A stretch of 52,898 nucleotides of DNA from Acidobacteriota bacterium (lineage in GTDB: Bacteria > Acidobacteriota > Vicinamibacteria > Vicinamibacterales > CAVVIG01), in NCBI GenBank assembly GCA_003222535.1, contig QHWJ01000230.1, forward strand, positions 1 to 52,898. Direction: 5' to 3'. The stretch's first letter is position 1. The number at the start of each line of letters is the position of its first letter. Of the stretch, positions 13,113 to 16,133 are shown piece after piece. Made by a program: the position numbers and the translations under genes. The notes under the pieces are model-generated. The model worked only from the letters and a program-made list of their open reading frames with translations, had not been told where the DNA came from and searched no databases.

Positions 13113-13188
<76 letters not shown>

Positions 13189-13204
13189 GTGTTTCCCTCA
13201 TGGT

Positions 13205-13234
13205 CCGACGCGATCTGAACGCCGATCGCGTCGG
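13205..13234 (+). terminator. Hairpin downstream of tRNA-Ala
   Basis: CCGACGCGATC (13205-13215) and GATCGCGTCGG (13224-13234) form a perfect 11-bp stem with an 8-nt loop, 17 bp after the tRNA. No U run follows, so it is either a weak terminator or a 3'-processing boundary. The stretch from here to 13425 contains no other gene I can support. Confidence 0.45.
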
Positions 13235-13425
13235 CACCTTCCGGCGCTGACCGTCACCTTTCGCCACTCTTCACTCCCGCCCGGCTCCCGCCCGCCAGGT
13301 GGTTCAGCGCCAGGCCGGCCCCGCTCCTGCAGGTGCGTCGCCGCGGCGCCCGTGCTCTCGATCGTCAGCAGACGCCTCTCAGTTCCTGCTGTCAATTGAA
13401 ATCGGTTTCGGTTATGCTTCTTTTC

Positions 13426-13617
13426 ATGTCACGGAAAGCCCCACCTCCTCGCGCCGTCGCGCTCCCCTCAGCCAGCGAGATCCGCGCCGCGGCCGGGATC
13501 CTCGGTCGGAAAGGCGGACGGATCGGCGGCCGTTCGCGCTCCCCCGCAAAAATCGCCTCGGCCCGCGAAAACGGGAAGCTCGGCGGCCGGCCGCGCACAA
13601 AGACACGGAGTCTCTGA
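13426..13617 (+). CDS. Basic AT-hook-like peptide, first unit of the array
   Basis: A 63-residue, strongly basic protein. It contains two related motifs: GRKGGRIGGRSRS (about 31-43) and ENGKLGGRPRTK (about 49-60). The second resembles an AT-hook core (GRP flanked by basic residues), which binds the minor groove of AT-rich DNA. The same ENGKLGGRPR motif recurs in two micro-frames at 13829 and 14104. The stop lies 2 bp before the next start. An ATG at 13414 would add four residues. Function is unknown; nucleic-acid binding is an inference from composition and motif. Confidence 0.55.
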   Translation: MSRKAPPPRAVALPSASEIRAAAGILGRKGGRIGGRSRSPAKIASARENGKLGGRPRTKTRSL

Positions 13618-13619
13618 CG

Positions 13620-13832
13620 ATGCCGCATCCGGAGGTCGCCCGGCTTCTCCACACGATGTTCGACGCGAACAACACGGCGTTCGCGGCGCTGCGGCGCGCG
13701 AATACCGCGATGGGGGCCGCGAATGCGTCCATGGGGGAAGCCATCCAAGCGCACGACGACGCGATTCAGGCGGCGCTGGTCGCGAACCAGGCCGCGATCG
13801 ACGTCTTGAACGCGCTGAGCAAAGACCAGTGA
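13620..13832 (+). CDS. Small Ala-rich helical protein A of the array
   Basis: A 70-residue protein predicted to be one or two amphipathic helices, with no Cys, Trp or Tyr. The C-terminal half (IQAALVANQAAIDVLNAL) aligns closely with that of protein C at 14187 (IDAALAANRAALELLNQL), so the two are paralogues. No signal peptide or membrane segment. It starts 2 bp after the basic peptide gene and ends overlapping the next micro-frame by 4 bp (GTGA), so the units are packed as an operon. I do not recognise the family. An oligomerising coiled coil is plausible. Confidence 0.6.
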   Translation: MPHPEVARLLHTMFDANNTAFAALRRANTAMGAANASMGEAIQAHDDAIQAALVANQAAIDVLNALSKDQ

Positions 13833-13888
13833 CCGCGGCCCGCCACAACGGGAAGCTCGGCGGCCGGCCGCGCAAGCAGGAAAAGTAA
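13829..13888 (+). CDS. Micro-frame with AT-hook-like motif, second unit
   Basis: GTG at 13829 overlaps the stop of protein A (GTGA) and reads 19 codons (residues MTAARHNGKLGGRPRKQEK) to a TAA that overlaps the ATG of protein B (TAATG). The motif NGKLGGRPRK matches the tail of the peptide at 13426. Overlaps on both sides support translation, but the frame is so short that it could also be a residue of a decayed copy or a non-coding DNA repeat. Confidence 0.4.
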   Translation: MTAARHNGKLGGRPRKQEK

Positions 13889-14103
13889 TGGATCAGGGAC
13901 TGCACCAGATTCTGACGGATCTCTCGGCCGCGCAGACCGCGCTGCGGCGCTCGTCGTTGGCGTTTGATGGCACCGTGGCGGGCGCACGCGCGACGCTCGA
14001 GGCACTCGCCGCGGCGAACCAGGCGCAGGGCGAGGCGATGGACGCGGTCATCGGCGCGACCGAAAAGGCGCTGCGGCTGTTCACGGCGACTGATCGGCAC
14101 TGA
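13888..14103 (+). CDS. Small Ala-rich helical protein B of the array
   Basis: A 71-residue, alpha-helical, Ala-rich protein (LHQILTDLSAAQTALRRSS, then TLEALAAANQAQGEAMDAVI). It resembles proteins A and C in length, composition and hydrophobic spacing, but is the most diverged of the three. Its ATG overlaps the stop of the micro-frame before it by 1 bp, and the next frame begins straight after its stop. No known domain recognised. Role unknown. Confidence 0.6.
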   Translation: MDQGLHQILTDLSAAQTALRRSSLAFDGTVAGARATLEALAAANQAQGEAMDAVIGATEKALRLFTATDRH

Positions 14104-14190
14104 TTGTCGTCCTTCCCCACCAAAGTCGCCGCCGTGCGCGAAAACGGGAAACTCGGCGGCCGGCCGCGCAAGAGGAAGGCGCGGGCATGA
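14104..14190 (+). CDS. Micro-frame with AT-hook-like motif, third unit
   Basis: TTG at 14104, directly after the stop of protein B, reads 28 residues ending RENGKLGGRPRKRKARA. The stop overlaps the ATG of protein C (ATGA). Its segment FPTKVAAVRENGKLGGRPR parallels SPAKIASARENGKLGGRPR of the peptide at 13426, so it is a shortened homologue of that gene. Start codon use is uncertain; an internal GTG at 14134 is an alternative. Confidence 0.45.
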   Translation: MSSFPTKVAAVRENGKLGGRPRKRKARA

Positions 14191-14411
14191 TCGACCCGGA
14201 CATTCGCAAACGACTCCAAGCGATTCTCACGGCGCACGATGACGCCTTCCGCGCCCTGCGCGCTGCGGATGATGCCGTGGGCGACGGCAACGGCGCCCTG
14301 CGTCTCCTCATCGACGCCCAGGCGCGGGTGATTGACACCCACCGGGTCGCGATCGACGCGGCGCTCGCGGCGAATCGCGCCGCGTTGGAATTGCTGAATC
14401 AACTGGAATAA
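14187..14411 (+). CDS. Small Ala-rich helical protein C of the array
   Basis: A 74-residue protein beginning MIDPDIRKRLQAILTAHDD, with heptad-like spacing of Leu/Ile/Ala throughout and the C-terminal AIDAALAANRAALELLNQLE. It is a paralogue of protein A. Start overlaps the upstream micro-frame (ATGA). It is the last clear member of the array. No recognised function. Confidence 0.6.
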   Translation: MIDPDIRKRLQAILTAHDDAFRALRAADDAVGDGNGALRLLIDAQARVIDTHRVAIDAALAANRAALELLNQLE

Positions 14412-14420
14412 GGGCCGACC

Positions 14421-14693
14421 ATGACACTGGATGAGATCCTCGACTGGCAGGAGCAGATGGGGACACGACTCCGGCGCTACGGCGGCACCCTGATCACCGT
14501 GGCCGGCTGCGACACGGTGCAACCCGTCGACGCGAACGACAACGCCCGCCGTCGCTTCCAGTATCGCGGCGGCGGCGGCCTCCGTCAAAGCGATCGAAGG
14601 CGCGGTGGTCACCGCGAACACCGCCAGCACGAGGCGCGCGAAACGTGGCGTTCGACGGTTGAGAGGCACGAGCGGAGTAGATTACATAATTAG
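14421..14693 (+). CDS. Possible fourth small protein at the end of the array
   Basis: ATG at 14421 lies 9 bp after protein C. The first ~48 residues (MTLDEILDWQEQMGTRLRRY...) look protein-like. The rest (GGGGLRQSDRRRGGHREHRQHE) is Arg/Gly/His-rich and looks out of frame. In another frame the same DNA reads an Ala-rich helix (VASSIAAAAASVKAIEGAVV) like those of the array, so a frameshifted gene is possible. Weak call. Confidence 0.25.
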   Translation: MTLDEILDWQEQMGTRLRRYGGTLITVAGCDTVQPVDANDNARRRFQYRGGGGLRQSDRRRGGHREHRQHEARETWRSTVERHERSRLHN

Positions 14694-14709
14694 CACAATA
14701 GCTAATTAT
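14686..14709. terminator. AT-rich inverted repeat, probable bidirectional terminator
   Basis: ATAATTAGC (14686-14694) and GCTAATTAT (14701-14709) are a perfect 9-bp inverted repeat with a 6-nt loop. It lies between the array and the convergent gene at 14706 and overlaps that gene's stop codon. The AT content is striking in this GC-rich DNA. It could also be an AT-rich binding site for the AT-hook-like peptides. Confidence 0.5.
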
Positions 14710-15044
14710 CGGAGTGCGTGGCGGCGGGCGGCGTCAGCCCACGGCCGATCGTAGTTGAGGCGAAACAGGTCGATGACGGCGGGAACATCCGTCGCGTCGC
14801 GGATGTAGTAGCTCACCCAGCCGGACTCGGCGTGGATGTGATGCGGCTCGGCCCTGCCAGCCCGGACCAGCTCCTCTCTCACCCGCACGGGGAACGGCAG
14901 ATCGGCAAGGCGATTGCCATGCAGATGCCCGAGCTCGCGGCGGCCCACCCTGAACTCAATCCCGCCGAAACGATGGAGGTTGACGGTGACGCCTTCCCAC
15001 CCGGCGACCGCGCGCTCGATTTGTGCGGCAATTGAATCGTCCAT
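14706..15044 (-). CDS. Luciferase-domain (DUF5519-like) protein
   Basis: A 112-residue protein with the pattern GWEGVTVNLHRFGGIEFRVGRRELGHLHGNRLADLPFPVRVRE and a C-terminal HHIHAESGWVSYYIR, characteristic of the small 'luciferase domain' (DUF5519) family of unknown function. The His-rich centre may bind a ligand or metal. ATG at 15042-15044 is chosen for normal family length. An ATG at 15072-15074 and a GTG at 15078-15080 would add 10-12 residues and overlap the divergent gene's start. Confidence 0.7.
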   Translation of the reverse strand: MDDSIAAQIERAVAGWEGVTVNLHRFGGIEFRVGRRELGHLHGNRLADLPFPVRVREELVRAGRAEPHHIHAESGWVSYYIRDATDVPAVIDLFRLNYDRPWADAARRHALR

Positions 15045-15072
15045 GGTGCTTTCGGCGACAATGGGCTCGGTC

Positions 15073-15276
15073 ATGACCACTTCGCCGGAGCGTCACGAGG
15101 CGTCGCCCGAACGTGCAGGACTCTGCGGATCGTGCAAGCTGGCCGAGGTCGTCACCTCGTCACGGGGATCCACGTTCTATCTCTGCTCGCTGTCGGTAAA
15201 GGATCCCACATTCCCGCGATATCCGGCGTTGCCCGTAAGATTCTGTCGTGGGTACGAGCCGGCTAGCAGCCCGTAG
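15073..15276 (+). CDS. Small Cys-containing conserved hypothetical protein
   Basis: A 67-residue protein with LCGSCKLAEVVTSSRGSTFYLCSLS and PRYPALPVRFCRGYE. The four cysteines (CxxC, then C and C) could bind one zinc. I recognise the pattern as a widespread small hypothetical protein but know no function. It is divergent from the DUF5519 gene, and the longest start of that gene overlaps this ATG. Its stop codon lies inside the palindromic element at 15265. Confidence 0.6.
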   Translation: MTTSPERHEASPERAGLCGSCKLAEVVTSSRGSTFYLCSLSVKDPTFPRYPALPVRFCRGYEPASSP

Positions 15277-15384
15277 TGGAAGTCCGCCTGCATTCGGGGC
15301 CCCCAGCGCGGCAGCCGCGCTGGGGTGGTCGACCGGGCGCATCGCCGCCCTCGGTGCGACGGCGGACTTCCACCACGGACTGCT
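15265..15384. repeat. 120-bp element with 24-bp terminal inverted repeats
   Basis: The left end (15265-15288) starts AGCAGCCCGTAGTGGAAG, and the right end (15361-15384) is its reverse complement at 22 of 24 positions. Inside is a perfect 11-bp hairpin CCCCAGCGCGG-CAG-CCGCGCTGGGG (15301-15325) and a weaker hairpin around GGGCGCATCGCC. It provides the stop codon of the gene upstream and ends 12 bp before the methyltransferase start. A solitary 22-bp arm matching the right end exactly occurs at 19337-19358. No transposase is present, so it looks like a MITE-type or REP-type element. Confidence 0.8.
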
Positions 15385-15396
15385 AACCGAACGGCC

Positions 15397-16050
15397 ATGG
15401 GCGTAGCGGCGCATCTCGGCATCAGACTCGCGGAATACGACCGGCGGATCCGCACGTTCATCCCCGACTACGACGAGATGCTCGACGTAGCGGCCGCAGC
15501 CGTTCCAGCGCGGGCGCGCATGCTCGTGGACCTCGGCATCGGCACCGGCGCGCTGGCGGCGCGGTGTCTGAAGATCGCTCCGCGCGCGCGGATCGTCGGC
15601 ATCGACGTCGACCCCGAGATCCTGACCATGGCTGCGCGGCGCTTTCGCGACCGTGCCACGCTCGCCGCCGGGACATTCCTGCGCACGCCGCTGCCGTCGT
15701 GCGACGCGGTGGTCGCGTCGTTTGCGCTGCATCACGTCCGGACGCGAGCCGCGAAGGCGGCGCTCTACCGGCGCGTCCGTGCGGCCTTGCGACCCCGGGG
15801 CCTCTTCGTGAGCGTCGATTGCCAACCGGCCCGTGATCCGGCCGTGCGCCGGGTGCAGCGAGATGCCTGGCTCGCTCACCTTCGCCGCTCCTACACGGCC
15901 ACGCAGGCGACGAAACTGCTGGCGGCCTGGTCCCGCGAGGACGTATACGTCCCGCTCGACTCCGAATTCGCGTTGATGCGACGCTGCGGCTTCCGCGTCG
16001 AAGTGCTGTGGCGGCGCGGATCCTTCGCGGTTCTCAGAGGAGCTCGTTAG
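15397..16050 (+). CDS. SAM-dependent class I methyltransferase
   Basis: A 218-residue protein with the SAM-binding motif I VDLGIGTGALAARCL (about 44-58), the acidic motif II VGIDVDPEI and the motif IV/post region DAVVASFALHHVRTRA, then RAALRPRGLFVSVD. It belongs to the broad methyltransf_11/25 group. Substrate cannot be deduced. ATG at 15397 gives a normal start just after the repeat element; the frame stays open upstream through the repeat. The C-terminal domain ends FRVEVLWRRGSFAVL. Confidence 0.85.
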   Translation: MGVAAHLGIRLAEYDRRIRTFIPDYDEMLDVAAAAVPARARMLVDLGIGTGALAARCLKIAPRARIVGIDVDPEILTMAARRFRDRATLAAGTFLRTPLPSCDAVVASFALHHVRTRAAKAALYRRVRAALRPRGLFVSVDCQPARDPAVRRVQRDAWLAHLRRSYTATQATKLLAAWSREDVYVPLDSEFALMRRCGFRVEVLWRRGSFAVLRGAR

Positions 16051-16095
16051 GGCCCTTAGTGTCATTCCATTCGGCCGAGCCGCCCTGAGCCGAAG

Positions 16096-16125
16096 TTGAC
16101 AGTGCGCGTACGGCGCGATCACAAT
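16096..16125 (+). promoter_or_regulatory. Promoter of the rhodanese-like gene
   Basis: TTGACA at 16096-16101 and CACAAT at 16120-16125 are separated by 18 bp. The -10 box ends 8 nt before the GTG start at 16134, so the transcript would have almost no leader. Confidence 0.5.
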
Positions 16126-16133
16126 ACACAGCC

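Follow-up and report, generated by a model that had tools for sequence, protein, structure and literature searches.

A small-gene array of probable phage origin 3' of a tRNA-Ala gene in an Acidobacteriota genome

The 52,898-nucleotide stretch of DNA from an Acidobacteriota bacterium that was analyzed here (hereafter, the window) contains, at positions 13426-14411, an array of small genes that most likely represents accessory genes remaining 3' of a tRNA-Ala gene from a temperate phage or a phage-like integrative element (we estimate the probability of this reading at about 0.7). The array would combine two families of small genes, both also represented on viral contigs, one encoding a basic peptide and the other alanine-rich coiled-coil rods. 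The tail of the basic peptide, shared with antitoxin families, and the tRNA-hotspot setting are known already; the alternating arrangement of the two kinds of genes is, as far as searched, particular to the genome of the array. The analysis provides a first anatomy of two uncharacterized small-protein families of mobile elements, a coil rod of variable length and a basic tail peptide. It also links a tail of antitoxins (HicB-like, DUF2442) to free-standing peptides of viral contigs, which makes the role of the tail testable, and marks a tRNA-Ala integration hotspot in a family of Acidobacteria.

The accessible parts of the literature on GGRPR and AT-hook tails, HicB tails and DUF4926/DUF2442, and of that on Vicinamibacteria prophages and coiled-coil genes at att sites, contained no description of such a layout. 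Among the matches listed, those on tails and AT-hooks did not include the string GGRPRK, and those on DUF4926/DUF2442 did not mention DUF4926.

Organization of the array

Six co-oriented frames, all on the forward strand and joined by five tight junctions, were read from the sequence. Basic 1 (13426-13617, 63 amino acids) encodes a KGG/GGRPR basic peptide and is followed by A (13620-13832, 70 amino acids), which encodes a predicted coiled-coil protein. The next two frames are basic 2 (13829-13888, GTG start, 19 amino acids), putatively copied from the 3' end of a gene for a basic peptide, and B (13888-14103, 71 amino acids), a predicted coiled-coil protein of a second subfamily. The array closes with basic 3 (14104-14190, TTG start, 28 amino acids), another putative copied 3' end, and C (14187-14411, 74 amino acids), which belongs to the subfamily of A. 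The operon-style packing that had been described in an earlier note on this DNA is exact in the sequence, the junctions being TGA-CG-ATG, GTGA, TAATG, TGA-TTG and ATGA; by chance, a given frame would have a start between -4 and +2 of a random point with a probability of 0.078. Basic 3 lies directly past the TGA of B and in the same frame, and basic 2 is in a different frame from A. The firm part of this layout is a co-oriented basic-peptide gene and three coiled-coil genes, with ends near enough for translational coupling.

All three coil genes are intact and have a purine-rich stretch ahead of the start; this stretch is AGGA, within basic 2, in the case of B and GAGGAAGG, within basic 3, in that of C. 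Neither basic 2 nor basic 3 is itself preceded by a clear ribosome-binding sequence. These two short frames would supply the ribosome-binding-like sequence of the coil gene that follows, and might or might not be translated, in the former case by reinitiation. Transcription could possibly begin at about the ATG of basic 1, without a leader, from a candidate promoter read by eye, CTGTCA-18-TATGCT (13389-13418, forward strand), which is absent from the listing of a consensus promoter scan.

An integration hotspot at the tRNA-Ala gene

Accessory genes adjacent to attachment sites are a known kind in integrated phages and satellites. The array shares with such genes its position at a tRNA hotspot and a homolog located beside an integrase on a viral contig (L093), and differs from them in having neither an integrase nor an att repeat. 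The tRNA gene at one boundary of the presumptive element is tRNA-Ala(CGC) (13113-13188, forward strand; detected with ARAGORN and Rfam), which is a hotspot in relatives. This gene adjoins pfk in 21 of the 22 loci of the family, including the locus analyzed here, and 19 of these are in the orientation of the window. The 3' flanks, 16 of which were compared in relatives (three shortened by contig ends; 0.7, 1.6 and 2.9 kb), contain the rhodanese gene of the window in 12 cases and its PolX gene in 11, after variable intervals, and its methyltransferase gene in two. Directly 3' of the tRNA-Ala, genomes G009 and G006 have an integrase piece that passes the Pfam cut-off, and G026 has one that falls below it. 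In the latter genome (L127), 53 nt of the 3' half of the tRNA are repeated about 1.2 kb beyond; a weak integrase remnant lies between the tRNA-Ala and the 53-nt copy, so that this element, small and decayed, retains the att sites of both ends. The homology of the window to G014 and G020 resumes at about 15390. Given the variable 3' side and the integrase pieces in relatives, the interval from 13189 to about 15390 is interpreted as the filling of this hotspot.

Traces of the integration event were sought at the array itself. The best match for a tRNA-half direct repeat in 13195-16130 was within the range of shuffles, and a 20-nt stretch of the tRNA does not recur in the window at three or fewer mismatches. 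Two integrases from homologous loci matched the window no better than at E 0.67, and no phage hallmark genes were detected among the array and adjacent proteins scanned. With no att repeat or integrase left at the array, we can only infer integration as the origin of this copy, from the hotspot in relatives and the homologies to viral contigs.

Coiled-coil proteins A, B and C

The earlier note recognized A and C as paralogs, and this holds: the two are 41% identical (dN 0.52, dS 1.23), and B is related to both more distantly, within one family. The closest viral-contig homolog of A, encoded at 2283-2504 of the IMG/VR contig L087, is 66% identical to it (70% in local alignment). B is 76%, 75% and 64% identical to proteins of contigs L093, L094 and L095, respectively, and 68-71% identical to a homolog in G014, and C is 54% identical to a homolog in G006. 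The corresponding dN/dS values are 0.19/1.0 for A and L087; 0.16/0.93, 0.17/1.06 and 0.32/1.36 for B and L093, L094 and L095; 0.18/1.21 for B and G014; and 0.36/1.72 for C and G006. For A and B compared with the closest viral-contig homologs, the ratio is about 0.15-0.24, a pairwise, approximate estimate at high dS that is informative on the families and not on selection at the array locus. The codon-position conservation whose absence, by the earlier note, would have counted against the array is found for A and B, which, by this comparison, are real genes conserved as proteins.

The low ratios derive from distant homologs, so that a dead remnant, with no present function and with frames open only through recent arrival, has to be weighed against a functional array. 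The array is isolated, lacks phage partners, includes truncated tails and occurs, as far as searched, in a single genome, all of which would be expected of a remnant; the integrity of A, B and C, each with its purine-rich stretch, argues against it. We consider loss of function a real but lesser possibility.

AlphaFold2 (single chain, 14-row alignment) predicted A as one helix spanning residues 4-68 (65 residues), with mean pLDDT 95.5 and pTM 0.61. Two anchor motifs, defined with knowledge of the sequences, are separated by 24, 31, 45 or 59 residues in 13 of the 14 members of the coil family, and the 14th member lacks the first anchor. Every spacing equals 3 modulo 7, and hence, the length of the coil varies by whole heptads. 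Taken together, the sequences and the model indicate that the A, B and C family consists of alanine-rich coiled-coil rods of variable length in whole heptads, which are predicted to be likely to oligomerize.

In searches of Pfam, PHROGs and NCBIfam that also covered neighbor ORFs, the array proteins (A, B and C, and basic 1 and basic 3) yielded no match above a curated cut-off, and a PADLOC search of the three coil proteins and basic 1 was likewise negative. Both the coil family and the family of free-standing peptides described below are uncharacterized, no named family having matched at its cut-off. Weak PHROG matches, of unknown function for B (E 0.0027) and C (E 0.018) and to a 'DNA transfer protein' for A (E 0.01), were attributed to composition. 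A structure search of the A model against BFVD returned nothing, and a PDB sequence search gave one match, an alanine-rich ice-binding protein, at E 0.08.

Distribution of the coil homologs

A profile built from A, B and C only gave best matches of E 1e-19 or better in genomes G006, G011, G014 and G104, and it also finds the members on viral contigs. At E 1, matches were obtained in 114 of 149 genomes, including the source genome; those outside the source genome and these four relatives, from G002 at 5e-4 downward, were discarded, being mostly short and inside long frames. With a wider coil profile, which included the relatives from G006, G011, G014 and G104, homologs were detected in five of 162 genomes of the order, again counting the source genome, at E 1e-5, and, at E 1e-3, in three of 396 genomes sampled from the phylum, one of these marginal with an internal stop. 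A four-row pattern scan across 84,980 species, each represented by one genome, recovered two loci, those of G006 and G011; it misses G014 and G104, if these are among the genomes covered, and its sensitivity is thus low.

Among IMG/VR contigs, a homolog of A was found on one (L087) and homologs of B on three (L093, L094 and L095). L087, 28 kb in length, has matches to terminase (7.3e-24) and major head protein (2.8e-34). On L093, the B homolog lies 89 nt past an integrase (6.8e-29), and a second coil ORF comes after it (1.5e-6 with the A, B and C profile); an HTH-like ORF without a Pfam match was noticed by eye near the coil homolog. L094 and L095, where no integrase was noticed by eye beside the B homologs, are viral by their IMG/VR label alone. 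In G014, the B homolog and an integrase are located on opposite sides of a tRNA-Pro, the former 58 nt 3' of it and the latter 5' of it, and in G006, a DUF4926 gene (4.1e-15) comes directly after the coil gene. The DUF4926 and HTH-like neighbors would fit an accessory function in mobile elements. The coil genes of G104, G006 and G011 have ordinary-looking neighbors, without a phage mark by eye; in G104 (L043, 4361-5201, reverse strand), two ORFs noticed by eye come after the coil gene, the first with an RHH-like stretch, possibly a regulator, and the second coil-rich. No coil homologs were found in 50,697 phage records with three homologs as queries or in 72,556 plasmid records with two, and with the G006 coil as the sole query, a viral scan was negative. 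The earlier suggestion that the array is phage-derived is supported by the homologs of A and B and the stand-alone basic peptides on IMG/VR contigs, together with the tRNA hotspot.

The basic peptide and its tail copies

Basic 1, with a net charge (K+R minus D+E) of +14, consists of a GRKGG segment and a SPAK-A--RENGKLGGRPR tail, and is probably nucleic-acid-binding. A degenerate NGKLGGRP pattern has three matches in the 8.06-Mb assembly, all in the array, and a tail profile gives one weaker match elsewhere in the assembly (C62, E 0.0028). The earlier note correctly counted three frames with NGKLGGRPR, but these do not strictly end in the motif, which is followed by 4-6 further residues.

The tails of the window are nearly identical at the codon level: basic 2 and basic 1 share nine of the nine core codons, and basic 3 shares eight of nine with each of them. 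Across 30 tails from relatives and viral contigs, the mean codon agreement at equal residues is 0.37 (435 pairs), and only one of the 435 pairs reaches eight of nine core codons. The codon usage of the window, derived from 21 of its long open frames (10,809 codons), predicts an agreement of 0.364, and the probability of at least eight of nine in two unrelated copies is 0.0013. As A and C are near synonymous saturation whereas the tails are nearly identical, the tail copies must be younger than the coil paralogs or else homogenized. The best reading of these comparisons is that basic 2 and basic 3 would be recently copied 3' ends of a gene of the basic 1 type.

The in-frame position of basic 3 behind the single TGA of B, and the fact that the motif is a C-terminal tail in other families, would also suit recoding, whereby A and B would be made with a basic C-terminal tail, through a -1 shift at the end of A and readthrough of the TGA of B. 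This would require two different recoding events, inspection by eye revealed no slippery heptamer where A ends, and the homologs of A and B end at about the same residue with no tail downstream. The last observation indicates that the tails are additions to the array and not the ends of coil proteins, and on this ground, fusion by recoding, which we regard as very improbable, was set aside.

In four loci of relatives, the coil gene has no such basic peptide next to it, and the tail profile found nothing in the coil loci of G006, G011, G014 and G104 or of contigs L087 and L093-L095; this profile misses the L087 peptide described below and thus sees GGRPR-type tails only. Alternation of basic and coil frames was found at no other locus among those examined. 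The profile searches for the same alternation in other genomes, proposed earlier as a check, were negative as far as they extended, and, with basic 2 and basic 3 resembling copied 3' ends, the idea of a conserved alternating system is not sustained.

Relatives of the basic peptide and possible functions

Basic 1 aligns over nearly its whole length with stand-alone peptides of contigs L148-L151 and L087 (45-60% identity in the alignment), apart from about 15 additional residues near its start. The L148 peptide is an open frame of 63 amino acids with the sequence MARKNPHAVALGRRGGLASKGKTSPAKAASSRKNGKLGGRPRKQRTP, and the similar L149 peptide, with a GTG start, is 62 amino acids long; the peptides of L150 and L151 are identical, and that of L087, in which the GGRPR end is missing, is linked to basic 1 via L148-L151. 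In L150, L151 and L087, the frames are open further upstream, and the starts were placed by comparison with the other peptides. The L087 peptide gene ends 1,206 nt upstream of the A homolog, on the same strand, whereas no coil gene was found in the stretches read of L148-L151. The stand-alone KGG/GGRPR peptides thus resemble basic 1, but none is part of an alternating array and, in the stretches read, only L087 also has a coil gene. Searched against phage records, the L148 peptide had one match (MW202801, E 0.1); basic 1 itself had weak matches to six plasmid and three phage sequences (E 0.5-9), five of the six plasmid ones being annotated as DUF2442.

The second group of relatives is formed by antitoxin-like proteins. 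A tail match at E 0.01 is present in at least 41 of 149 genomes, including the source genome. Among eight tail-bearing proteins of relatives, the HicB_lk_antitox domain was found above the Pfam cut-off in three (L050, L057 and L065) and below it in one, DUF2442 was found above the cut-off in one (L064), and nothing convincing was found in three. A viral scan with basic 1 yielded tails 46-67% identical on four IMG/VR contigs. In contigs L038-L041, the tails end putative HicB-like ORFs that adjoin HicA-like ORFs; these names reflect Pfam matches below the cut-off in the two contigs scanned, L038 and L039. Positions 3429-5108 of L038 include two tandem HicA-like/HicB-like pairs, with both HicB-like ORFs ending in a GGRPR tail. 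The C-terminal SPAK-A--R-NG-GGRPR(K) tail of HicB-like antitoxins (PF15919) and DUF2442 proteins (PF10387) is the tail of basic 1 and basic 3, but no HicB or DUF2442 domain is present in the array, where the tail occurs alone, as basic 1 or in short frames.

These relationships give some substance to the earlier suggestion of a module similar to toxin-antitoxin systems: the tail is common to antitoxin families, one coil gene, that of G006, is next to a DUF4926 gene, and the DUF4160/DUF2442 pair dhiTA is listed in a table as a toxin-antitoxin system (PMC8198452). In such a module, the basic peptide would be a detached antitoxin tail and the coils would be toxins or partners. The array itself, however, contains no toxin domain recognizable with Pfam, NCBIfam, PHROGs or PADLOC. 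Neither HicA toxin nor HicB antitoxin domains were detected in the array, basic 2 being too short for the scan. Three coils allow no plausible one-to-one pairing, and coil homologs are also found without a basic peptide. A toxin-antitoxin role of the array therefore seems improbable.

AT-hook proteins of the HMGA type have an RGRP core. The basic tail shares with them a GRP core flanked by basic residues and differs in having GGRPR in place of RGRP. The AT-hook-like character noted earlier stands as a fair resemblance of motifs, phage tails (L039-L041) having AGRPKGSKN at the same place, but the Pfam AT-hook was not found among the proteins scanned. By analogy, AT-hook-like peptides bridged by coiled-coil rods might form a DNA-compacting, nucleoid-like system; the net charge is +14 for basic 1 and -2 to -3 for the coils. 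That the tail is found on a number of unrelated small proteins speaks for a general function, and the coils are rare and patchy in the order; a nucleoid system, as the earlier note had it, is unsupported, and we consider it unlikely.

For the accessory cluster of a phage or phage-like element, which we prefer, our guess is that the coils oligomerize and that they and the basic peptide target DNA or a host regulator, during lysogeny or superinfection. This is a tentative proposal, as is the broader one of a nucleic-acid-binding complex of some kind. A more elaborate scheme, a phage-borne two-part system in which the KGG/GGRPR peptide would bind nucleic acid, coils of two subfamilies would assemble with it and a reinitiation chain through the micro-frames would fix the ratio of the parts, is rather unlikely.

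Other features of the interval

An ORF of 90 amino acids (14421-14693) starts 9 nt past C (MTLDEILDWQEQMG...); it has no family match in Pfam, PHROGs or NCBIfam and is perhaps a broken further gene of the array. The AT-rich palindrome of the earlier note is present at 14686-14709 (no strand) and reads ATAATTAGC-ACAATA-GCTAATTAT, a perfect palindrome with 9-bp arms and a 6-bp center in GC-rich surroundings; its 22-bp core occurs exactly once in the assembly. The palindrome is flanked by the array side and a luciferase-domain gene, at their convergent ends, and may not be part of the array; its arms and spacer resemble the core site of a recombinase in size only. The luciferase-domain gene (14706-15080, reverse strand; PF17648, 4.6e-22) is present in none of the 16 flanks of the tRNA-Ala hotspot in relatives and is perhaps another acquisition within the same interval. 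Near the end of the interval, at 15260-15389, there is a pair of 29-bp inverted repeats that are part of a dispersed family, with 53 matches in the assembly at three or fewer mismatches, counting the pair in the window, and none for the reversed pattern. This family is REP-like and possibly mobile.
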